Assembly (NCBI GenBank): GCA_943788835.1
Contig: CALSRU010000002.1
Coordinates: forward strand, 1-64,000
Reading direction: 5' to 3'
DNA: 64,000 nt
DNA from: an uncultured Pseudomonadales bacterium
GTDB taxonomy: Bacteria > Pseudomonadota > Gammaproteobacteria > Pseudomonadales > UBA7434
Under the pieces are notes generated by a model that saw only the letters and a program-made list of their open reading frames with translations, searched no databases and was not told where the DNA came from. A program made the position numbers and the translations under genes. Shown here in pieces: positions 39,971 to 48,947 of this stretch. Position 1 is the first letter of the stretch; the number at the start of each line of letters is the position of its first letter.

Positions 39971-40735
39971 CTAGACAGTGAAGCCACCATCCACCACTAT
40001 ACACTCGCCCGTGGTGTAACTCGACGCATCGGAGACCAAATAAAGGACGGTGCCTGCCATTTCTTCAGGCTCAGCGTGACGCCTCATGGGGACGCTTTGA
40101 ATAGCGGTATTATAAATCTCTTCATTGCTGAACAAAGCGCCAGCAAACTTAGTTTTGGTAAAGCCCGGCAGCAACGCATTCACGCGGATGCCATGGGGCG
40201 CACATTCCTTGGCAAAGGCTTTGGTCATGCTCACCACTGCCGCCTTAGTAATAGAATAAATACCCTGCAAAGCCCCAGGGATTAACGCATTGACCGAAGC
40301 GGTGTTGACGATAGTACCGCCGCCACTGTCGCGCATTAAGCGACCACCCTCAACCGACATAAAAAAGTAGCCGCGTACATTCACATCAACTGTTTTGGTG
40401 TAGGCACCTAAGTCGGTATCGAGGATATCCCCAAAGTACGGATTAGCCGCAGCATTATTGACCAAAATATCTAATTTGCCGTGCTTGTTCTTAATGTGGG
40501 TGAAAATCGCACTAATGTCATCCATGTTACCCACGTGGCAGGCGAATGCTTCGGCGCTGCCGCCGCTCTCGTTAATGGCATTAGATACCACTTCGCAACC
40601 ATCTATTTTGCGGCTAGAAACAATAACATGGGCGCCCTGCTCAGCTAACAATTTAGCAATGGATTCACCAATGCCACGGCTTGCGCCCGTCACTAAAGCA
40701 ATTTTTCCGGTTAAATCGAATAAAGTGGTACTCAT
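39971..40735 (-). CDS. Short-chain dehydrogenase/reductase
   Basis: A 254-residue classical SDR. TGxxxGIG motif (LVTGASRGIGESIAKLLAEQ), NNAA (VNNAAANPYFG), Ser in NTASVNALIPG and YxxxK in GIYSITKAAVVSMTKAFAKE, with the substrate-side PGFTKTKFAGAL and C-terminal ECIVVDGGFTV. It is the first gene of the minus-strand acyl-CoA cluster, 52 bp before the acyl-CoA dehydrogenase. It probably acts on a hydroxy or keto intermediate of the same pathway. Substrate not determinable. Confidence 0.88.
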   Translation of the reverse strand: MSTTLFDLTGKIALVTGASRGIGESIAKLLAEQGAHVIVSSRKIDGCEVVSNAINESGGSAEAFACHVGNMDDISAIFTHIKNKHGKLDILVNNAAANPYFGDILDTDLGAYTKTVDVNVRGYFFMSVEGGRLMRDSGGGTIVNTASVNALIPGALQGIYSITKAAVVSMTKAFAKECAPHGIRVNALLPGFTKTKFAGALFSNEEIYNTAIQSVPMRRHAEPEEMAGTVLYLVSDASSYTTGECIVVDGGFTV

Positions 40736-41067: not shown

Positions 41068-41655
41068 TTAGGTGGGGTTGTCATCAAAGGGATGCTGGCC
41101 TGATACTTTAATCCAGAGTAAAAAGCAGCCCAAAGCAGCCAGCACCAGTGCGCCGGGCAGCACCCAAGTATTCATCACATCAAAATGCAACGGGAAGTAG
41201 ACATCTACCTTCAGCATCGCCGCCACGCGCACAATATTAAGAATAAAAATCGTAATCATGCTTAAAATAACAGCCGCGATTTTTTTCGGCAGGCTCCCGG
41301 GCCACGCAACGATAGCGGCCACCAATGCAGCCATGATCATCAAGCCATCAGTGCCCTCGCCAAAGCGTATTACCGCGCCATCGTGCGCGCGGATTTCGCC
41401 GAGCATACCGTTAGGCAAAGAACTCAGCTCAACTTGCTCGCCTAACATGTTCAGTAAATCTCTTATAATTGGGACACACACATCAAGGTACTGCCCAAAA
41501 CTATTAGTCCCCAAAAAATAGTTGTTGTAACAATAATTCAACAACCAAAACAACGAAAAAAATATTGCGCCGAACTTCAGCATACCTTTATTGCCGAAGA
41601 AACCTCCTATTGCTTTTTCATTAGCGTTAGATTTTTTTAGCTGGCTTGGCAACAT
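41068..41655 (-). CDS. Exosortase/archaeosortase-family membrane protein with replaced catalytic residues
   Basis: A 195-residue inner-membrane protein with about five hydrophobic helices. The layout and spacing follow exosortases, especially the short XrtH type. The helix normally opening with the catalytic Cys reads EGTDGLMIMAALVAAIVAWP (Thr102 at the Cys position), the Arg is kept (Arg143 in FILNIVRVAAML), and nineteen residues later the usual His is Asn162 (HFDVMNTWVLPGAL). Exosortases cleave C-terminal sorting signals by a Cys-dependent transpeptidation; this version should not use that chemistry. A protein with an exosortase-style C-terminal tail is encoded 2.3 kb away. Family membership comes from pattern recognition by eye. 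Confidence 0.68.
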   Translation of the reverse strand: MLPSQLKKSNANEKAIGGFFGNKGMLKFGAIFFSLFWLLNYCYNNYFLGTNSFGQYLDVCVPIIRDLLNMLGEQVELSSLPNGMLGEIRAHDGAVIRFGEGTDGLMIMAALVAAIVAWPGSLPKKIAAVILSMITIFILNIVRVAAMLKVDVYFPLHFDVMNTWVLPGALVLAALGCFLLWIKVSGQHPFDDNPT

Positions 41656-42053
41656 TTCGTTATTCCGCAGTGATTCTTGACATGGCCGCTATACTAACAT
41701 TTAAGAGCGCCACTTTGCAGGTCATAGATTCATTTGTTATGGCATTGCAAACCATATTCAAGCGCAGAACGTGCCAATACTATTAAAGCCAATACCCTAA
41801 AAACTGCAAAAAATTCGGTACATTATAAAAATATCGGGCGATTATTTCTTTATCAACCCATAAGCCATACTCAACTACCGATAGTGATTTGTGATGCTTA
41901 GACCTAACATGCATGTATTGATAACTAGCGACAACTTGGTTATTACTATTGTTTTTCTACTTGTTTCCTCAAGGCTCATACTAACTGAACACTAGTCAAA
42001 AAGTTGATATACTTCTTGGAAGCCAGAATACGGAGAAATGAGGCGACTCTTAT
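41656..42053. other. Divergent intergenic region
   Basis: A 398-bp AT-rich gap between the exosortase-like gene (left) and the oxygenase gene (right). A possible rightward promoter is TGAACA (41986-41991) with TATACT (42008-42013), spacing 16, and GGAG and GAGG lie before the ATG. No other structure seen. Confidence 0.4.
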
Positions 42054-42779
42054 ATGCAAAACAGACGCTATGTAAAAAACTTTTCGTTTCTTGAAGACAC
42101 CGCATGTTACTGCGGCAGCCAGCAGCCGTTTTCATTGTGCTGCGGACCCAAATCAAAAAAACGAAAAGTTCCTAATGGAATTTCTATTGTCAACGACTTT
42201 TTAAGCGCCCCACAAATAAACAACTTAATACGCTGGGCAGAAAAACAAAAAAGATCTTGGCTGACAACCATCGACTTAGAGAAGTCGATGGCAGGGAAGA
42301 CGATTCAAAAAAAAGATGCAGGACGAGTCACACAAACCGTTGCGCTGGGAACTCGCCAAGCGAAAATCAATTCGCTATTGCACAAAGCCTACACCAACGA
42401 AATAACACCAAGATCAGGATTGCAGATCGAGTCGTTTGAGCCCGCCAGCATGCTGCGATACGGGCCTGGAGGCAAATATGGGGCACATGCAGACGCAGAG
42501 CAAGATGATGAGCACGGGGTATTTTACAAAGTACTAGATAGGGATATCAGCTTGCTTTTATACTTGAACGATAATTATGAAGGAGGCGAACTTAAATTTA
42601 CCCGCCTAAACTATACTTATAAACCTAAAGCAGGGGACCTTGTTTTCTTTCCTTCAAATCATATTTTTACGCACGAATCTACCCCACTTACCGTCGGGGT
42701 AAAGTGGGCTATCGTATCATGGGCCAAACTGACTCAGTCGGTTCCCTTACCTGACAGCATCAAACGCATTAGCCTGTAA
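42054..42779 (+). CDS. SEC-C motif fused to a 2-oxoglutarate/Fe(II) dioxygenase
   Basis: A 241-residue cytoplasmic protein. The N-terminus carries a zinc-binding SEC-C-like motif (Cys18, Cys20, Cys29, Cys30 in CYCGSQQPFSLCCGP). The rest is a prolyl-4-hydroxylase-type double-stranded beta-helix: iron ligands His145 and Asp147 (YGAHADAEQ) and His207 (IFTHEST), the 2-oxoglutarate contact Lys217 (TVGVKWAIVSW), and LLLYLNDNYEGGELKFTRLN and GDLVFFPSNHI. All catalytic residues are present, so it should hydroxylate a protein or small molecule. It is followed 80 bp later by a methyltransferase gene and lies between the exosortase-like gene and its possible substrate. Confidence 0.85.
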   Translation: MQNRRYVKNFSFLEDTACYCGSQQPFSLCCGPKSKKRKVPNGISIVNDFLSAPQINNLIRWAEKQKRSWLTTIDLEKSMAGKTIQKKDAGRVTQTVALGTRQAKINSLLHKAYTNEITPRSGLQIESFEPASMLRYGPGGKYGAHADAEQDDEHGVFYKVLDRDISLLLYLNDNYEGGELKFTRLNYTYKPKAGDLVFFPSNHIFTHESTPLTVGVKWAIVSWAKLTQSVPLPDSIKRISL

Positions 42780-42859
42780 CCCTTATTTATGTTTGAGAGC
42801 GTCACATAATATTAGTGGGCGGGCCCAAAAATCTCCGTACCTGACTTAGAGATATAAAA

Positions 42860-43825
42860 ATGAGTAATCTTAGTGCAGAAAAATGGTCTGCATTGTGGAG
42901 CAATCAAACAACCACAACGCTACCCAGCATGTTTGAAGAGAATTATGATTTAAACATTGCAGACTTCTGGCATGAGGTCCTAGACGGCAACCACCAAAGC
43001 ATTATCGATCTCGCGTGCGGCAACGGAGCACTCGCTTGGCTTGCTAACGATCTGTTTTCTCAGCAAGAACGAATTACAAAAGTTACTGGTATCGATACGG
43101 CAAACATCGATCCGTTCAAAGTGCTAAATAAAGATAGAAAAAAATTTCCAATGCTTGACTTCATCGGCAACACAGCAATAGAAAAACTACCCTTTAACGA
43201 TGACTCAATCGATCTAGCGATCAGTCAGTACGGATTAGAGTATTCTAATTTACAGGAGTCGATTCCTGAGATCAGTCGAGTTTTAAAATCCAAGGCAAAA
43301 GTCGGCTTCATCTTACACAATAATGAATCTTTTCTTTTGAAAGGATCAACAATATCTTTGGACCGTCATTTACGAGTCTTACGCGAAGTAAAAATCCATG
43401 ATCTCTTTTTCGAGCTAGATCGCCTATTTGGCAGAAGTAAAGACTTAGAAAAAATCATCGCCAAGCCTAAAATTCGGAAAAAAATGAATGCTATTAACGC
43501 CGCAACTCTCCAAATCAAAGACATTATGAGCGACGTAAAGGCAGGCCTTGAAATTGAGCGCTATTCTCAGTCTATGTTTAATGCATTTTCTGAAGAATCT
43601 ATTCGAAAACGCATTGACCGAAAAAAAGCGATTCATCAAGCAATAAATCATTTGCAAAGCTACATTGATCGCATAGTGGATTTGAAAACCGCTGCTTTAT
43701 CTCCCGCCGAACTTGGCGTACTCGTCAACCTTATCGAAAAAGAAGGATTTACAATTAGCGAGAACCATCCCATTGCTTATAAAGAGCACAAAAACTTAGG
43801 GACTGCATTTGTAGCCCATCGTTAA
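42860..43825 (+). CDS. SAM-dependent class I methyltransferase
   Basis: A 321-residue soluble methyltransferase. Motif I is IIDLACGNGALAWLANDLF, the acidic SAM contact follows in VTGIDTANIDPF, and the later strand motif is DLAISQYGLEYSNLQESIPE, then VLKSKAKVGFILHNNES. The C-terminal half is an unusual, strongly helical and basic extension (KIRKKMNAINAATLQIKDIM, RKRIDRKKAIHQAINHLQSY) with no recognised domain. It is downstream of the oxygenase gene, likely in one transcript that ends at the terminator at 43881. Target unknown. Confidence 0.83.
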   Translation: MSNLSAEKWSALWSNQTTTTLPSMFEENYDLNIADFWHEVLDGNHQSIIDLACGNGALAWLANDLFSQQERITKVTGIDTANIDPFKVLNKDRKKFPMLDFIGNTAIEKLPFNDDSIDLAISQYGLEYSNLQESIPEISRVLKSKAKVGFILHNNESFLLKGSTISLDRHLRVLREVKIHDLFFELDRLFGRSKDLEKIIAKPKIRKKMNAINAATLQIKDIMSDVKAGLEIERYSQSMFNAFSEESIRKRIDRKKAIHQAINHLQSYIDRIVDLKTAALSPAELGVLVNLIEKEGFTISENHPIAYKEHKNLGTAFVAHR

Positions 43826-43880
43826 ACCTCTTGCTTTGCCAAAAAATCATCAGAGCATGAGCATGTTAAATACTACAAGC

Positions 43881-43912
43881 AAAAAAAAACCCGGATAAAC
43901 CGGGTTTTTTTT
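43881..43912. terminator. Bidirectional rho-independent terminator
   Basis: Nine A, CCCGG (43890-43894), loop ATAAA, CCGGG (43900-43904), eight T. It separates the rightward oxygenase-methyltransferase pair from the leftward sorted-protein gene and can end both. Confidence 0.92.
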
Positions 43913-43961
43913 GTTCGAATAAAAAAATCTTAAACGAACCTATCCATCGCAAAACCGCCTA

Positions 43962-44888
43962 TTACTTGATAGCGCGACGACGGCCAGTCAGGTAAGTAAT
44001 ACCGAGCAAGCCAAGACCCAAGGCAGCTGCAGCAAAAGCCGGTACCGGCACAGACTTGCCAAATTGCCCGCATTCAGTCGATACATCGCATGTTGTGTAT
44101 GCAACATCGATGAAACCAGCTAAATCCCAGCTAGTATCACCAGCTCCAGCGGCTGGGCCAGGGTATGGACCAATTGACGCAGTGCCACCACTTTTGTAGG
44201 TGTCAATGAGAGTTTGCGTATCAGCAAACGAAGGCAGGTTGCCAAAAGGACTGACAGCGCCTGCTGTTCCGCCTTGGTAAGCTACAGCAACTTTGCTATC
44301 CCATGAAGTGACGATATAACTGTTGATGCCTGTAACGCCCAGCGCAAAAAACCCATAATAGCCGCCTGTTATTTGGCCTTCTGAGTTCGTACAAATGCTC
44401 GACACGGTTGGAGTTGCATCTAGATTTTCAGTATTCTGAAATCCAGCCGCTGCGTAGGGTGCAGCAATTTGAGGAACATAAGTGTTTGAGGTTGTACGTA
44501 GTATGGCTGTCATATCGCCACTAGTAAAATTAGCGCTGCCTGTGTCTGGAATTGCATTGCCCGATGCATCAAAAACATAATCAGCAGCGCTGTAAGTGTA
44601 ACAATCAGCTGTGGGCGTGTAAGCTCCCGAAGCACCCCCAAGCGTTTTATTCGTGATGATGATATGACTCAAAGCTTCCCCCGGTAGCGTTGTGCCAAAA
44701 GCCGGGTTTGTACAGTTACCTGATACGCAAGCATTAGTGCCAAAGAGAGGCAGCGTGGCCATAGTTTGGTGATATTCTTTTAGAGCACCACCTTGCCAGT
44801 TAACACTATCATATGCCATTGCTCCGCCGCTCATGAGCATGCCTGCACCTGTTGCAGCCACAGCTGCCGCTAAAATTGATTTTTTCAT
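43962..44888 (-). CDS. Secreted protein with an exosortase-type C-terminal sorting signal
   Basis: A 308-residue exported protein. An N-terminal signal peptide (MKKSILAAAVAATGAGMLM to GGAMA), a Gly/Ser/Thr-rich body with paired Cys (NACVSGNC, DCYTYS, SSICTN, TTCDVSTECGQF), and a tripartite C-terminal tail: VPVPAF motif, an Ala/Gly/Leu helix (AAAALGLGLLGITYL) and a basic end (TGRRRAIK). This tail architecture is that of PEP-CTERM-like proteins processed by exosortases, though the motif is not PEP. It probably reaches the envelope by Sec and is then processed or anchored. The body resembles no family I know. The exosortase-like gene 2.3 kb away is the obvious partner. Confidence 0.75.
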   Translation of the reverse strand: MKKSILAAAVAATGAGMLMSGGAMAYDSVNWQGGALKEYHQTMATLPLFGTNACVSGNCTNPAFGTTLPGEALSHIIITNKTLGGASGAYTPTADCYTYSAADYVFDASGNAIPDTGSANFTSGDMTAILRTTSNTYVPQIAAPYAAAGFQNTENLDATPTVSSICTNSEGQITGGYYGFFALGVTGINSYIVTSWDSKVAVAYQGGTAGAVSPFGNLPSFADTQTLIDTYKSGGTASIGPYPGPAAGAGDTSWDLAGFIDVAYTTCDVSTECGQFGKSVPVPAFAAAALGLGLLGITYLTGRRRAIK

Positions 44889-45378: not shown

Positions 45379-48297
45379 ATGAAGTTGACAAGCTATTTAA
45401 AAGTTACCCCATCTTCTATCAACAGCGCCGGTCTTGGTTTTTTACTCAGTGCAGCACTGCTTGCCGCACCCTATACTCGCGCGCAAGATGTTGAAGAAGT
45501 GATTATTCAAGGCGAGCAAATGACGGACCAAGTTTTGGATGACTTGGTCTCGGTATCAGCTATTGATGCTGAAAAGCTGGCCGATGCTGGCATAGAGAAC
45601 GTTGAAGACGTAGCGGCCTATGTACCCAACCTCGTACTAACCCAATCGATTACCGGTACCAACATTTTCATTCGCGGCATTGGCTCTGGCGTAAATCAAG
45701 GCTTCGATCAATCGGTTGGCTTATATGCTGATGGTGTGCCGCTCCCACGAGCCAACATGGCTCGCTCACCATTTCTAGACCTGGCTGGTGTGCAAGTGTT
45801 GCGCGGGCCCCAGTACGTTCTCGATGGGAACTTCAGTATAGCGGGCTCAGTGCACATGCTCAGCAACCTATCTTTGGATGAGTTCAAAGCCGGTATCGAT
45901 TTAAACTATCAGCCGGCTCAAAACGACCGCAAGATCTTATTAACTGCCGGCGGGCCCATAAACGATTGGTTTGCAATAAATGCAGTGGTGCAAAGCAAAA
46001 AATCTGACGGTTACATGGAGAATGTATTTCAAGATAGCCTAGAGCCGGGGGTAGACGAACTGACGGGCAGATTCGTTCTGGGTTTCAATCCTACGGATAA
46101 TTTCTCTATTAAATTTAAAGCCGAACGCGGTTCTTTCGATACTACCGGAAGGCCCATAGAAGTGATTTTTTCGGAACAATCTGGACGGCTAGACAAAACT
46201 GCATTGACCCCCATAGGCTTTGAGATCACCCGAGACGCTTTGGTCGCTGGAACCCTAACTGCCACCCCATGGATCACTGAATCCGACTACTTGCTGGCCC
46301 CTCGCGACGTTAGGTACCGACAAGGGCTCGTAGTAGATGGAGTCCCGACTGAGCAATTCCTATTCGCGGGTAACGAATATTTTTCACAATGGAGCGAGTT
46401 TTACTCTGACAATGGAGCCACCGCTCCAACGGGGCTTTTAGATACAACGGCCAATTACAAACGAGCCGCAGACACCAAGGAATTTAGCAACAACGACAGC
46501 ATAAACTATACGCTCGTCAGCGACCTCTGGCTAAATGATTCTAAGTTGACCTCAACATCGTCCTACATTGAGTATTCGTTCGACGAGGCGATTGATGGCG
46601 ATATAACGCCGATGCCCTTGCTTGTCATTAATCAGAGCGAGAACTATGATCAAATTTATCAAGCGCTAAAATTTGAATCGCCCAAAGGCGGTTTTATTGA
46701 GCTCACCGCTGGAGCAAGCTACCTAAACTCGCACTTGAAGTTTAGGGATAATATCAACCTTGAGATTGACTCTCGGAATATCCCACCTGGCAGTTCATTA
46801 GACGCCTTTGACGTTAACGCACCTGTGGGTGCTTTCTTCGCCCAATTCATCACGGTGGAGCAAATTCAGGGTTTTGCGGATTTCGGTATTATCAGAAACT
46901 TTAAGCAAAGCAATACTATTCAGGCAGCTTTCATTCAGTCTACATTTAACTGGAGCGATGTATTCCGATCAACGATTGGCCTTCGCTACACTCATAGCGA
47001 AAAGGCCGCCTTTAAAGAGCTTTACTTCACAGATAAAGATTTTGTTGACTTTGACATCAATGTCGATCCTCTTGCTGTGGGTCGCGAGAGCCGAACACCC
47101 AATATTTCTGAGGCATTGCTAAACTCAATGGAGATTGCCACGCGTGATTTTGTGACTTTCTTTGGGCTGCAAGTGCATACTGATCGTTACGACGTACCGA
47201 ATACCGGTATTGATTCAGCGCCGCTGAACGAAGTTAGGCGCGAGGAAACACTCCTACCCAGCATCACCTTTGAATGGGACATCACTACCGATTTAACAAC
47301 GCTGGCCTCGGTACGCCTAGCAAATAAGCTTGGGGGCTTCGATGCCAGATCAAATACTCGGCCTGACGTTCCCGGCGGGCGAGGCGCTCCCGTCGGCACA
47401 TTTGAATTTAAGGATGAGAGTGCGCTAGTTTATGAATTAGGCACGAAATGGTTTTTCCCTCAAGGTAATGGACAGCTGTCTGCGACAGCATTTTTTAGCC
47501 AGTTCACTAACCTACAAACAAGCCGATCAGACGGGAAAGTGGGTGCAAATGTCACCAACGCAGGTGCCGCAGAAACTCGAGGAGTTGAAGTAGAAGGCTT
47601 TCTTGCCTTGAGCGAGAAGTTTAATATGCAATATTCGTTGGCTTGGATTGATTTTGAATTCACCGATTTCATCACTGGCACATGTGCACTTAACAGAAGA
47701 CCAGACAATGTGGTTGTCGTTATTGATGCAGGGGGGTTTGCGCCTGACGGCGCAAGTACGGGCTCGGTATCTCCCATTGCTTATGAAGAAGTTATTCGCG
47801 CTCAAAGTGGTGGTGACTTTGGTACCACAACCCAAGGAAACGGTTCATTATCACAACCGCTACCTAGTGGCAGTGTGCCTTTCGATGACTTGCTGTTCGG
47901 CTCACCGATCTTTTGCGATTTCAATGAAAGAACGAACCAGTTTGTTGCAGAGTGGCAAGGCACATTCACATTTAATTACCAGACCGAAATTGCAAAGCTT
48001 GGAGTATTCAAACCTACTGTGGACATTCTCTACAACAGCGGCTACTTTACTGATGTTGCGCAAGACGCTGATATTGCTCAGGAGGCCTATACACAAATAA
48101 ATGGGCGTTTAGGCCTCTCAGATTTTGACGGGCGATGGACCGTGGCTATTACTGGCCAAAATCTTACCAACGAAACGATTATTGGCTCGGCCGCTCCGGT
48201 GCCGATAGCTAGCGGAATTAATTTTCAGCGAGCCTATTTCGGTTTTATCCGTCCACCACGAACAATTGGCTTAAATCTAAGATACAATTTTTTCTAG
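45379..48297 (+). CDS. TonB-dependent receptor
   Basis: An outer-membrane TonB-gated receptor of 972 residues. Signal peptide, TonB-box-like EEVIIQGEQM, plug domain (IENVEDVAAYVPNLVLTQSI, IFIRGIGSGVNQGFDQSVGL, YADGVPLPRANMARSPFLDL), then a barrel with an aromatic C-terminus (IGLNLRYNFF). The plug's usual RGPQGTLYGRN stretch is altered to RGPQYVLDGNFSIAGSVHML. The general type is that used for large or hydrophobic substrates in marine gammaproteobacteria (iron complexes, glycans, others); substrate not determinable. It is followed 71 bp later by a small exported protein, likely cotranscribed. Confidence 0.9.
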   Translation: MKLTSYLKVTPSSINSAGLGFLLSAALLAAPYTRAQDVEEVIIQGEQMTDQVLDDLVSVSAIDAEKLADAGIENVEDVAAYVPNLVLTQSITGTNIFIRGIGSGVNQGFDQSVGLYADGVPLPRANMARSPFLDLAGVQVLRGPQYVLDGNFSIAGSVHMLSNLSLDEFKAGIDLNYQPAQNDRKILLTAGGPINDWFAINAVVQSKKSDGYMENVFQDSLEPGVDELTGRFVLGFNPTDNFSIKFKAERGSFDTTGRPIEVIFSEQSGRLDKTALTPIGFEITRDALVAGTLTATPWITESDYLLAPRDVRYRQGLVVDGVPTEQFLFAGNEYFSQWSEFYSDNGATAPTGLLDTTANYKRAADTKEFSNNDSINYTLVSDLWLNDSKLTSTSSYIEYSFDEAIDGDITPMPLLVINQSENYDQIYQALKFESPKGGFIELTAGASYLNSHLKFRDNINLEIDSRNIPPGSSLDAFDVNAPVGAFFAQFITVEQIQGFADFGIIRNFKQSNTIQAAFIQSTFNWSDVFRSTIGLRYTHSEKAAFKELYFTDKDFVDFDINVDPLAVGRESRTPNISEALLNSMEIATRDFVTFFGLQVHTDRYDVPNTGIDSAPLNEVRREETLLPSITFEWDITTDLTTLASVRLANKLGGFDARSNTRPDVPGGRGAPVGTFEFKDESALVYELGTKWFFPQGNGQLSATAFFSQFTNLQTSRSDGKVGANVTNAGAAETRGVEVEGFLALSEKFNMQYSLAWIDFEFTDFITGTCALNRRPDNVVVVIDAGGFAPDGASTGSVSPIAYEEVIRAQSGGDFGTTTQGNGSLSQPLPSGSVPFDDLLFGSPIFCDFNERTNQFVAEWQGTFTFNYQTEIAKLGVFKPTVDILYNSGYFTDVAQDADIAQEAYTQINGRLGLSDFDGRWTVAITGQNLTNETIIGSAAPVPIASGINFQRAYFGFIRPPRTIGLNLRYNFF

Positions 48298-48368: not shown

Positions 48369-48947
48369 ATGAGCAAGCGAAGCCTAATTCAACAGTTAAT
48401 TTTGATCGTTTTGCTAGCTACACAGGCCTCATGCCTAGATCGGGACTTCACTTACAATAGGCTTCTGGGTAGCTGGGAGGGAGCCAACGGGGCTGATACC
48501 AGTTGGTGTGCTACGTATACTACAGACGGGCGCTTTTCTTTATTTAGCCGATCACCCATCATCGACATGACGTCTCCCACGACATCAGATTCGAACATGG
48601 AAGATAAGATCCCGGCGGAGGCAAGCTTAACAAATAAAACCGAACTGGGCGTTGGCTATGTTGCCGGCTATTGGTCAGTTGCCCGCGGCGGACGGCTCTC
48701 CCAGCGCGGCGCGTTAGTCCGAGATAATAATGGCAGAGAACTGGCAAAGGCGCACCGCGTGCTACAACCCTCCACCGAGTACGTCATCCGTTTTAAAGGC
48801 AACGACAAGTTGTCACTACAAAACATTGAAAATAAAACGGACCACGCCATGCTAACCCGCGCTGCTAATTGTTTTCATTTTAGCAAGGATGTCAATATGG
48901 TTTTTGATGAAGCCATATGGGATGAAGACTCTGAGAGTGCTCCCTAG
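48369..48947 (+). CDS. Small exported protein of unknown function, possible lipoprotein
   Basis: A 192-residue protein with an N-terminal hydrophobic signal (IQQLILIVLLATQASC). The Cys could be lipidated, but the preceding TQAS is a poor lipobox. The mature part has GSWEGANGADTSWCATYTTD and GVGYVAGYWSVARGGRLSQR, resembling a small beta-barrel or lipocalin-like fold, plus a second Cys (RAANCFHFS). I recognise no family. It lies 71 bp downstream of the TonB-dependent receptor and may be its periplasmic partner. Confidence 0.6.
   Translation: MSKRSLIQQLILIVLLATQASCLDRDFTYNRLLGSWEGANGADTSWCATYTTDGRFSLFSRSPIIDMTSPTTSDSNMEDKIPAEASLTNKTELGVGYVAGYWSVARGGRLSQRGALVRDNNGRELAKAHRVLQPSTEYVIRFKGNDKLSLQNIENKTDHAMLTRAANCFHFSKDVNMVFDEAIWDEDSESAP

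Follow-up and report, generated by a model that had tools for sequence, protein, structure and literature searches.

Gene content of the locus

The window analysed here is a stretch of 64,000 nucleotides from an uncultured Pseudomonadales bacterium (assembly GCA_943788835.1, contig CALSRU010000002.1, positions 1 to 64,000), and this report concerns an exosortase-like gene in it whose product lacks two of the three catalytic residues, together with a nearby gene for a secreted protein with a C-terminal sorting tail. Both open reading frames (ORFs), 41068-41655 with 195 codons for amino acids and 43962-44888 with 308, were found on the minus strand 2.3 kb apart, as a sequence-only reading of this DNA had claimed. 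They belong to a four-gene module, encoded at 41068-41655, 43962-44888, 45379-48297 and 48369-48947, that consists of the exosortase-like protein, the secreted protein with its VPVPAF tail, a TonB-dependent receptor and a small lipoprotein-like protein. Four copies of the module were found in all, two in the window's own genome (G000; the window copy and a copy on contig C4) and two side by side on contig C95 of a congener, G009 (C95a and C95b). Other relatives compared were G002, G003, G005, G007, G008 and G010, and the genus set comprised 12 genomes. The features of the window on which the analysis centres are as follows.

41068..41655, minus strand: exosortase-like, predicted membrane protein, 195 amino acids, with the degenerate triad Thr102/Arg143/Asn162; a proposed pseudo-exosortase (TIGR04178 and alignment)
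41350..41352, minus strand: codon of Thr102, which takes the place of the catalytic Cys (alignment)
41227..41229, minus strand: codon of Arg143 in the N-x-x-R motif, invariant across the four module members (alignment)
41170..41172, minus strand: codon of Asn162, which takes the place of the catalytic His; Asn also in the ortholog fragment from G007 (alignment)
43962..44888, minus strand: secreted protein, 308 amino acids, with a signal-peptide-like N terminus, no known body domain and a C-terminal sorting tail
43965..44060, minus strand: sorting tail GKSVPVPAFAAAALGLGLLGITYLTGRRRAIK (tail versus body identity; tail profile E 4.8e-21, a self-inclusive value because the profile was built from this tail and the three other module tails)
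45379..48297, plus strand: predicted TonB-dependent receptor, 972 amino acids, divergent from the tail gene (Plug PF07715, 50.1 bits, cut-off 23.9)
48369..48947, plus strand: small lipoprotein-like secreted protein with a GSWEG motif and, by reading, an atypical lipobox QASC

Catalytic positions of the exosortase-like protein

The 41068-41655 product was matched by TIGR04178, the exo_archaeo signature, at 33.4 bits against a cut-off of 23, which places it in the exosortase/archaeosortase sequence family and bears out the exosortase-like assignment of the sequence-only reading. It resembles intact members of this family in signature, size, hydropathy, N-x-x-R motif and the presence of a neighbour with a tripartite tail, but differs from them in the replacement of Cys and His and in scoring under every listed named-subfamily cut-off, including those of the nearest models (XrtX, NF046081, 50.6 against 170; XrtF 44.7 against 90; XrtM 44.0 against 125; XrtH 40.8 against 86). 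Assignment to XrtX or to another named subfamily was rejected on account of these low scores, and the same held for the other module copies. Three hydropathy peaks were seen in the window copy and four each in the other module copies and in two intact exosortases tested. A single-sequence AlphaFold2 model of the window protein (predicted local distance difference test score 49.4, predicted template modelling score 0.32) was too poor for a fold search, and no solved structure matched the exosortase family profile at E <= 1.

Exosortases are described in PMC1569441 as having an invariant Cys in a Cys-Xaa-Gly motif, an Asn-Xaa-Xaa-Arg motif and a His in a third motif, and of these the window protein has only Asn-Xaa-Xaa-Arg (Asn140 and Arg143), with Thr102 in place of the Cys and Asn162 in place of the His. 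Alignment with intact homologs from the genus, order and class confirmed these two replacements and the retention of Arg143, all of which the sequence-only reading had proposed; the Cys column reads FGEGTDGL in the window protein and VARGCDAS in intact sequence, the His column reads FDVMNTW and FDLFHEW, respectively, and no intact Cys or His was found elsewhere in the alignment. His157 was considered as a displaced catalytic His and rejected, as residue 157 is Gln in the G007 copy from a second species. A sequencing artefact was also rejected, since the G007 fragment has Asn162 and Arg143 too, though it ends short of the Thr102 column.

A broken triad in module members and an intact one elsewhere

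None of the four module exosortases has an intact triad: the Cys, Arg and His columns read T/R/N in the window copy, S/R/S in the C4 copy, and C/R/S and A/R/K in the C95a and C95b copies, respectively. The N-x-x-R motif is retained in all four, and W118, P119, L139, N140, R143, D151, P155, F158, P167 and F178 are among the columns invariant between them. In the C95b copy, where the Cys column is Ala, a His stands one residue earlier and a one-residue shift of the alignment would place His in the column. Scores against TIGR04178 were 28.0 bits for the C4 copy, 36.1 for C95a and 22.8 for C95b, the last being 0.2 bits under the cut-off. Although the module exosortases share only 16-37% identity with one another, their ORFs run uninterrupted for 184-195 codons.

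Homologs outside the modules kept Cys, Arg and His in every case where the three columns were covered (62 of 62 in the order and class samples). The order sample of 293 genomes gave 43 exosortase matches, namely the four module members, 37 intact sequences (27 in the tree alignment and 10 read separately, some truncated) and two fragments without the Cys region; one fragment is from G007, with Asn in the His column, and the other from G005, with N, R and H present and probably the other part of L092. All 25 non-own matches in the class sample (369 genomes) were intact. A TIGR04178 search of a phylum sample of 398 genomes gave 98 non-own matches in 85 genomes, each with Cys and N-x-x-R, and two of them (L215 and L221) were without His at the expected place; this survey is biased, as TIGR04178 is itself weighted towards the Cys motif, and sequences as strongly degenerate as the C95b copy would escape it. 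Three ORF rows were left out of the tree, namely L048 (a second row for part of the C95b gene), L092 (truncated at a contig end) and L071 (interrupted by a stop); L092 and L071 were read separately. On these alignments, triad loss accompanies module membership.

A fragment of an ortholog of the window gene was found in G007, where the last 65 residues lie at a contig end and are 94% identical to the window protein, with Arg143 and Asn162 kept. A scan of genome contigs, which may omit records very near the window's genome, gave a single relative on CAJQKT010000057.1 that was taken as the same truncated G007 copy. The fragment differs from the window gene by seven changes in 195 bases, against about 31 predicted from the rate at silent sites in a neighbouring SDR gene (39971-40735).

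The VPVPAF tail and its distribution

The C terminus of the 43962-44888 product is VPVPAFAAAALGLGLLGITYLTGRRR, ending in VPVPAFAAAALGLGLLGITYLTGRRRAIK, and its N terminus is signal-peptide-like as judged by reading and hydropathy, with no signal-peptide program applied. By the same reading and hydropathy the protein shows the PEP-CTERM-type arrangement of motif, transmembrane helix and basic cluster following a signal-peptide-like start. It had no match in Pfam or in NCBIfam, including the PEP-CTERM-type and curated CTERM models; the NCBIfam scan of module tail proteins, which covered three of the four (window, C4 and C95a), gave no match, and three window proteins scanned against PHROGs gave none.

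Identity between the tail proteins of the four modules is 61-84% over the last 31 alignment columns but only 15-31% in the bodies, and we judge that tail conservation amid such dissimilar bodies exceeds chance. The VPVPAF, helix and RRR tail pointed out by the sequence-only reading on a secreted protein 2.3 kb from the exosortase-like gene is thus real. Exosortases are known as paired enzyme and tail families, and the VPVPAF tail is like the VPLPA-CTERM/PEP-CTERM tails in having a short Pro-containing motif, a hydrophobic helix and a basic end on otherwise dissimilar secreted proteins. The proteins with the tail VPVPAFAAxxLGLGLxxITxxTGRRR differ from those groups in the absence of an NCBIfam match (three of four scanned) and in their distribution, as strong tails (E <= 1e-5) were confined to G000 (two) and G009 (three) in the samples of 293 genomes of the order and 369 of the class. 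Both of these genomes hold degenerate exosortase genes, and at this threshold no tail-bearing genome lacking such a gene was found in the two samples. Weak matches (E 0.001-0.01) occurred in seven other genomes. A looser VPxPA-type DNA pattern was uninformative in the window's own genome, with 31 matches compared with 27 for the reversed pattern.

The third VPVPAF protein of G009 lies on a 9.3-kb contig, C10, that has no exosortase and stops 318 bases past the gene. An adjacent exosortase is therefore seemingly not needed by the tail, which would be expected if cleavage acts in trans.

A repeated module with a TonB-dependent receptor

Linkage of the exosortase-like gene to a tail-bearing protein recurs in all four modules, so the sequence-only reading had the pairing right, though it missed that the module is repeated, that a receptor and a lipoprotein-like protein are its partners and that an intact paralog, described below, exists. 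In the C4 module the exosortase-like gene, G000:C4:849762-850313, is accompanied by genes for a VPVPAF-tailed protein of its own, for a TonB-dependent receptor and for a small secreted protein with GTWEGE. In each of the four modules the tail gene adjoins the receptor gene in divergent, head-to-head orientation, with a 92-codon ORF that is probably not a gene lying between the two in C95b. No sigma-54-like pattern was found in the four receptor/tail intergenic regions.

The window receptor shares 48-50% identity with its three counterparts, and mutual identities across all modules were 42.5-52.9% for the receptors and 20-31% for the lipoprotein-like proteins. With E 0.1 as the limit, the beta-barrel domain PF00593 had no match in the receptors of the window and C95a, but those of C4 and C95b did match it. 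The profile A1, derived from the four lipoprotein-like proteins, gave strong matches to these four alone across the 12 genus genomes, and one weak match in G008 (E 0.008) contained stop codons. All sightings of the module come from a single genus.

Two further genes lie between the module genes of the window.

42054..42779, plus strand: SEC-C / 2-oxoglutarate (2OG)-Fe(II) oxygenase (PF13640, 66.4 bits)
42860..43825, plus strand: methyltransferase-like protein (PF08241, 35.7 bits)

The oxygenase was rejected as an obligate part of the module, since a single-protein search left it unmatched in G009 with its two modules and matched it in six genomes of the genus that have no detected module. The methyltransferase-like gene was not seen in the ORF lists of the other three modules. 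In three genomes of the genus, genes for 2OG-Fe(II) oxygenases from two different Pfam families are located close to exosortase genes (window 42054-42779, L036:12034-12606 and L037:2632-3198), and a sialyltransferase-like (GT29) gene, L025:8933-9580, adjoins the degenerate exosortase gene of C4.

Intact exosortases in the same genomes

G000 encodes four further exosortases with intact triads, two of the EpsH type, one of the XrtM type and one at C3 that we refer to as the ARGCDAS type. The last (G000:C3:46218-46784; ARGCDAS/R/H) is the nearest intact relative of the window protein, at 34% identity to it and 40% to the C4 copy, but has Cys, Arg and His in place. No tail protein was seen beside it. 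An intact close paralog is present elsewhere in both genomes with complete modules, G000 and G009. Within the genus set the ARGCDAS type was found in three of the 12 genomes (G000, G007 and G009), which are exactly those with a module or a fragment of one, and neither was found in the other nine.

The XrtM-type exosortase of G000 lies 2 kb past the window end, scores 136.3 bits against a cut-off of 125 and has an intact triad; it is 24% identical to the window protein. A 203-residue protein without an NCBIfam match follows it, and the pair, at L024:9865-11021 in G000, recurs in G007, G008, G009 and G010.

Proposed function and alternative explanations

A broken triad in four modules, a kept Arg, a repeated module and an intact paralog can be read directly from the sequences, and the constants across the modules are the family signature (above the cut-off in three of four copies), the N-x-x-R motif and linkage to one tail. 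This is best interpreted, in our view, as the 41068-41655 product being a pseudo-exosortase, most likely a non-cleaving receptor or escort for the tail of its own cassette, with cleavage carried out by the intact paralog. A duplicated exosortase would have been joined to a surface-uptake cassette of receptor, lipoprotein-like protein and VPVPAF-tailed protein, and the cassette-tied copy would then have lost its catalytic Cys and His while the family signature and N-x-x-R stayed. In the inner membrane, the pseudo-exosortase would bind the tail protein of its own cassette by the tail but leave it uncut; the bound protein may be held, escorted, regulated or passed to the intact paralog G000:C3 for cleavage, and it would reach the TonB-dependent receptor of its cassette. 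What we infer is the direction of change, that the tail is bound but not cleaved, that the protein passes to the intact paralog and that it is delivered to the receptor. As a functional comparison only, the proposal recalls the iRhom pseudoproteases, which presumably belong to another protease family than the exosortase-like protein. The iRhoms are inactive relatives of intramembrane proteases that recognise the transmembrane domains of their clients and differ from the window protein in being described in human and mouse (PMC6451368, PMC7618786).

Several results weigh against a pseudo-exosortase of this kind. The sample behind it is four modules in two genomes and one truncated fragment, and the Cys column still holds T, S or C in three of the four copies, so that residual chemistry is possible. 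Co-occurrence of the ARGCDAS type and the module rests on three probably related genomes and is weak statistically, and five of the nine genomes without the ARGCDAS type are less than 90% complete (70-88%). A single clade of the four degenerate copies was unsettled in the tree (support 54/10). The tail protein, receptor and lipoprotein-like gene of the module were not found in the G007 assembly, and the replacement/silent rate ratio in the G007 fragment was 0.39, with four of the seven changes being replacements, which is not significant (P = 0.20).

Alternatively, the degenerate copy may compete or heteromerise with an intact exosortase, tuning the processing of the tail protein rather than helping it. 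This explanation, which we consider unlikely, draws on the sequence evidence that also underlies the escort reading and finds a parallel in iRhoms, described in PMC3149277 as inhibiting rhomboid-dependent signalling; a private copy in each cassette would be easier to explain by a cargo-specific helper, although no result separates the two.

The module exosortases may also be functionless relics of duplicated genes that were carried along with their cassettes, as suggested by the lost catalytic residues, by fast evolution, seen as long terminal branches (6.05 changes per column in C95b), and by a replacement/silent ratio in the G007 fragment that is not significantly under neutral. Such decay appears improbable, as all four ORFs have stayed open over their 184-195 codons despite the low identity between them, N-x-x-R is invariant, and changes in the G007 fragment fall far below those at the silent sites of the neighbouring gene.

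The least probable explanation, to which we give very little weight, is an active sorting enzyme in which Cys transpeptidation was exchanged for an Arg143-aided reaction that uses the hydroxyl group of Thr102, or of Ser in the case of C4, as nucleophile and cleaves or transfers VPVPAF tails, in a separate variant for each cassette: three of the four Cys columns offer a possible nucleophile (T, S or C) and Arg is present in all four, but the replacements differ in each copy (T/N, S/S, C/S and A/K) where a shared set would be expected, the base column (N, S, S and K) and the Ala of the fourth nucleophile column leave no common alternative dyad, Cys173, Arg214 and Arg253 are reported as critical in archaeosortase ArtA (PMC9263693), and an intact close paralog sits in both genomes with complete modules. 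The sequence-only reading had left a choice between a sorting system of different chemistry and a non-cleaving tail receptor; the receptor fits best, and the different chemistry is disfavoured by the four different residue pairs and the intact paralog.

No description of a Cys-less exosortase was found among the papers listed by full-text searches of an open-licence library, although a mention in the 2012 archaeosortase/exosortase survey is possible. If the pseudo-exosortase reading is true, the module would hold a sorting counterpart of the inactive rhomboids, with the catalytic residues gone in every module and the tail linkage kept, and would show recognition of the tail uncoupled from its cleavage in nature. 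Through the head-to-head pairing of tail and receptor genes, it would also tie C-terminal sorting to TonB-dependent uptake.

Other candidate sorting tails

Near the XrtM-type exosortase of G000, a protein of 1159 amino acids (L024:12741-16220) ends in VPMMPAFALVCSMAVIFFSYVLSGRRRELNVETQTE, which is another possible sorting tail. In sister species, genes for TonB-dependent receptors lie beside those for secreted proteins with other tails, including VPAMGAFGL, VPIPAIFIYL and VPFPVYGLML (L036:9760-18128, on G008:C66, and L098-L101). No exosortase was found within the 3.7-4.8 kb examined around the receptor-tail pairs at G008:C37, G010:C342, G002:C1 and G003:C155, and for the pair at G008:C66 an intact exosortase is encoded at a distance of 3.5 kb.

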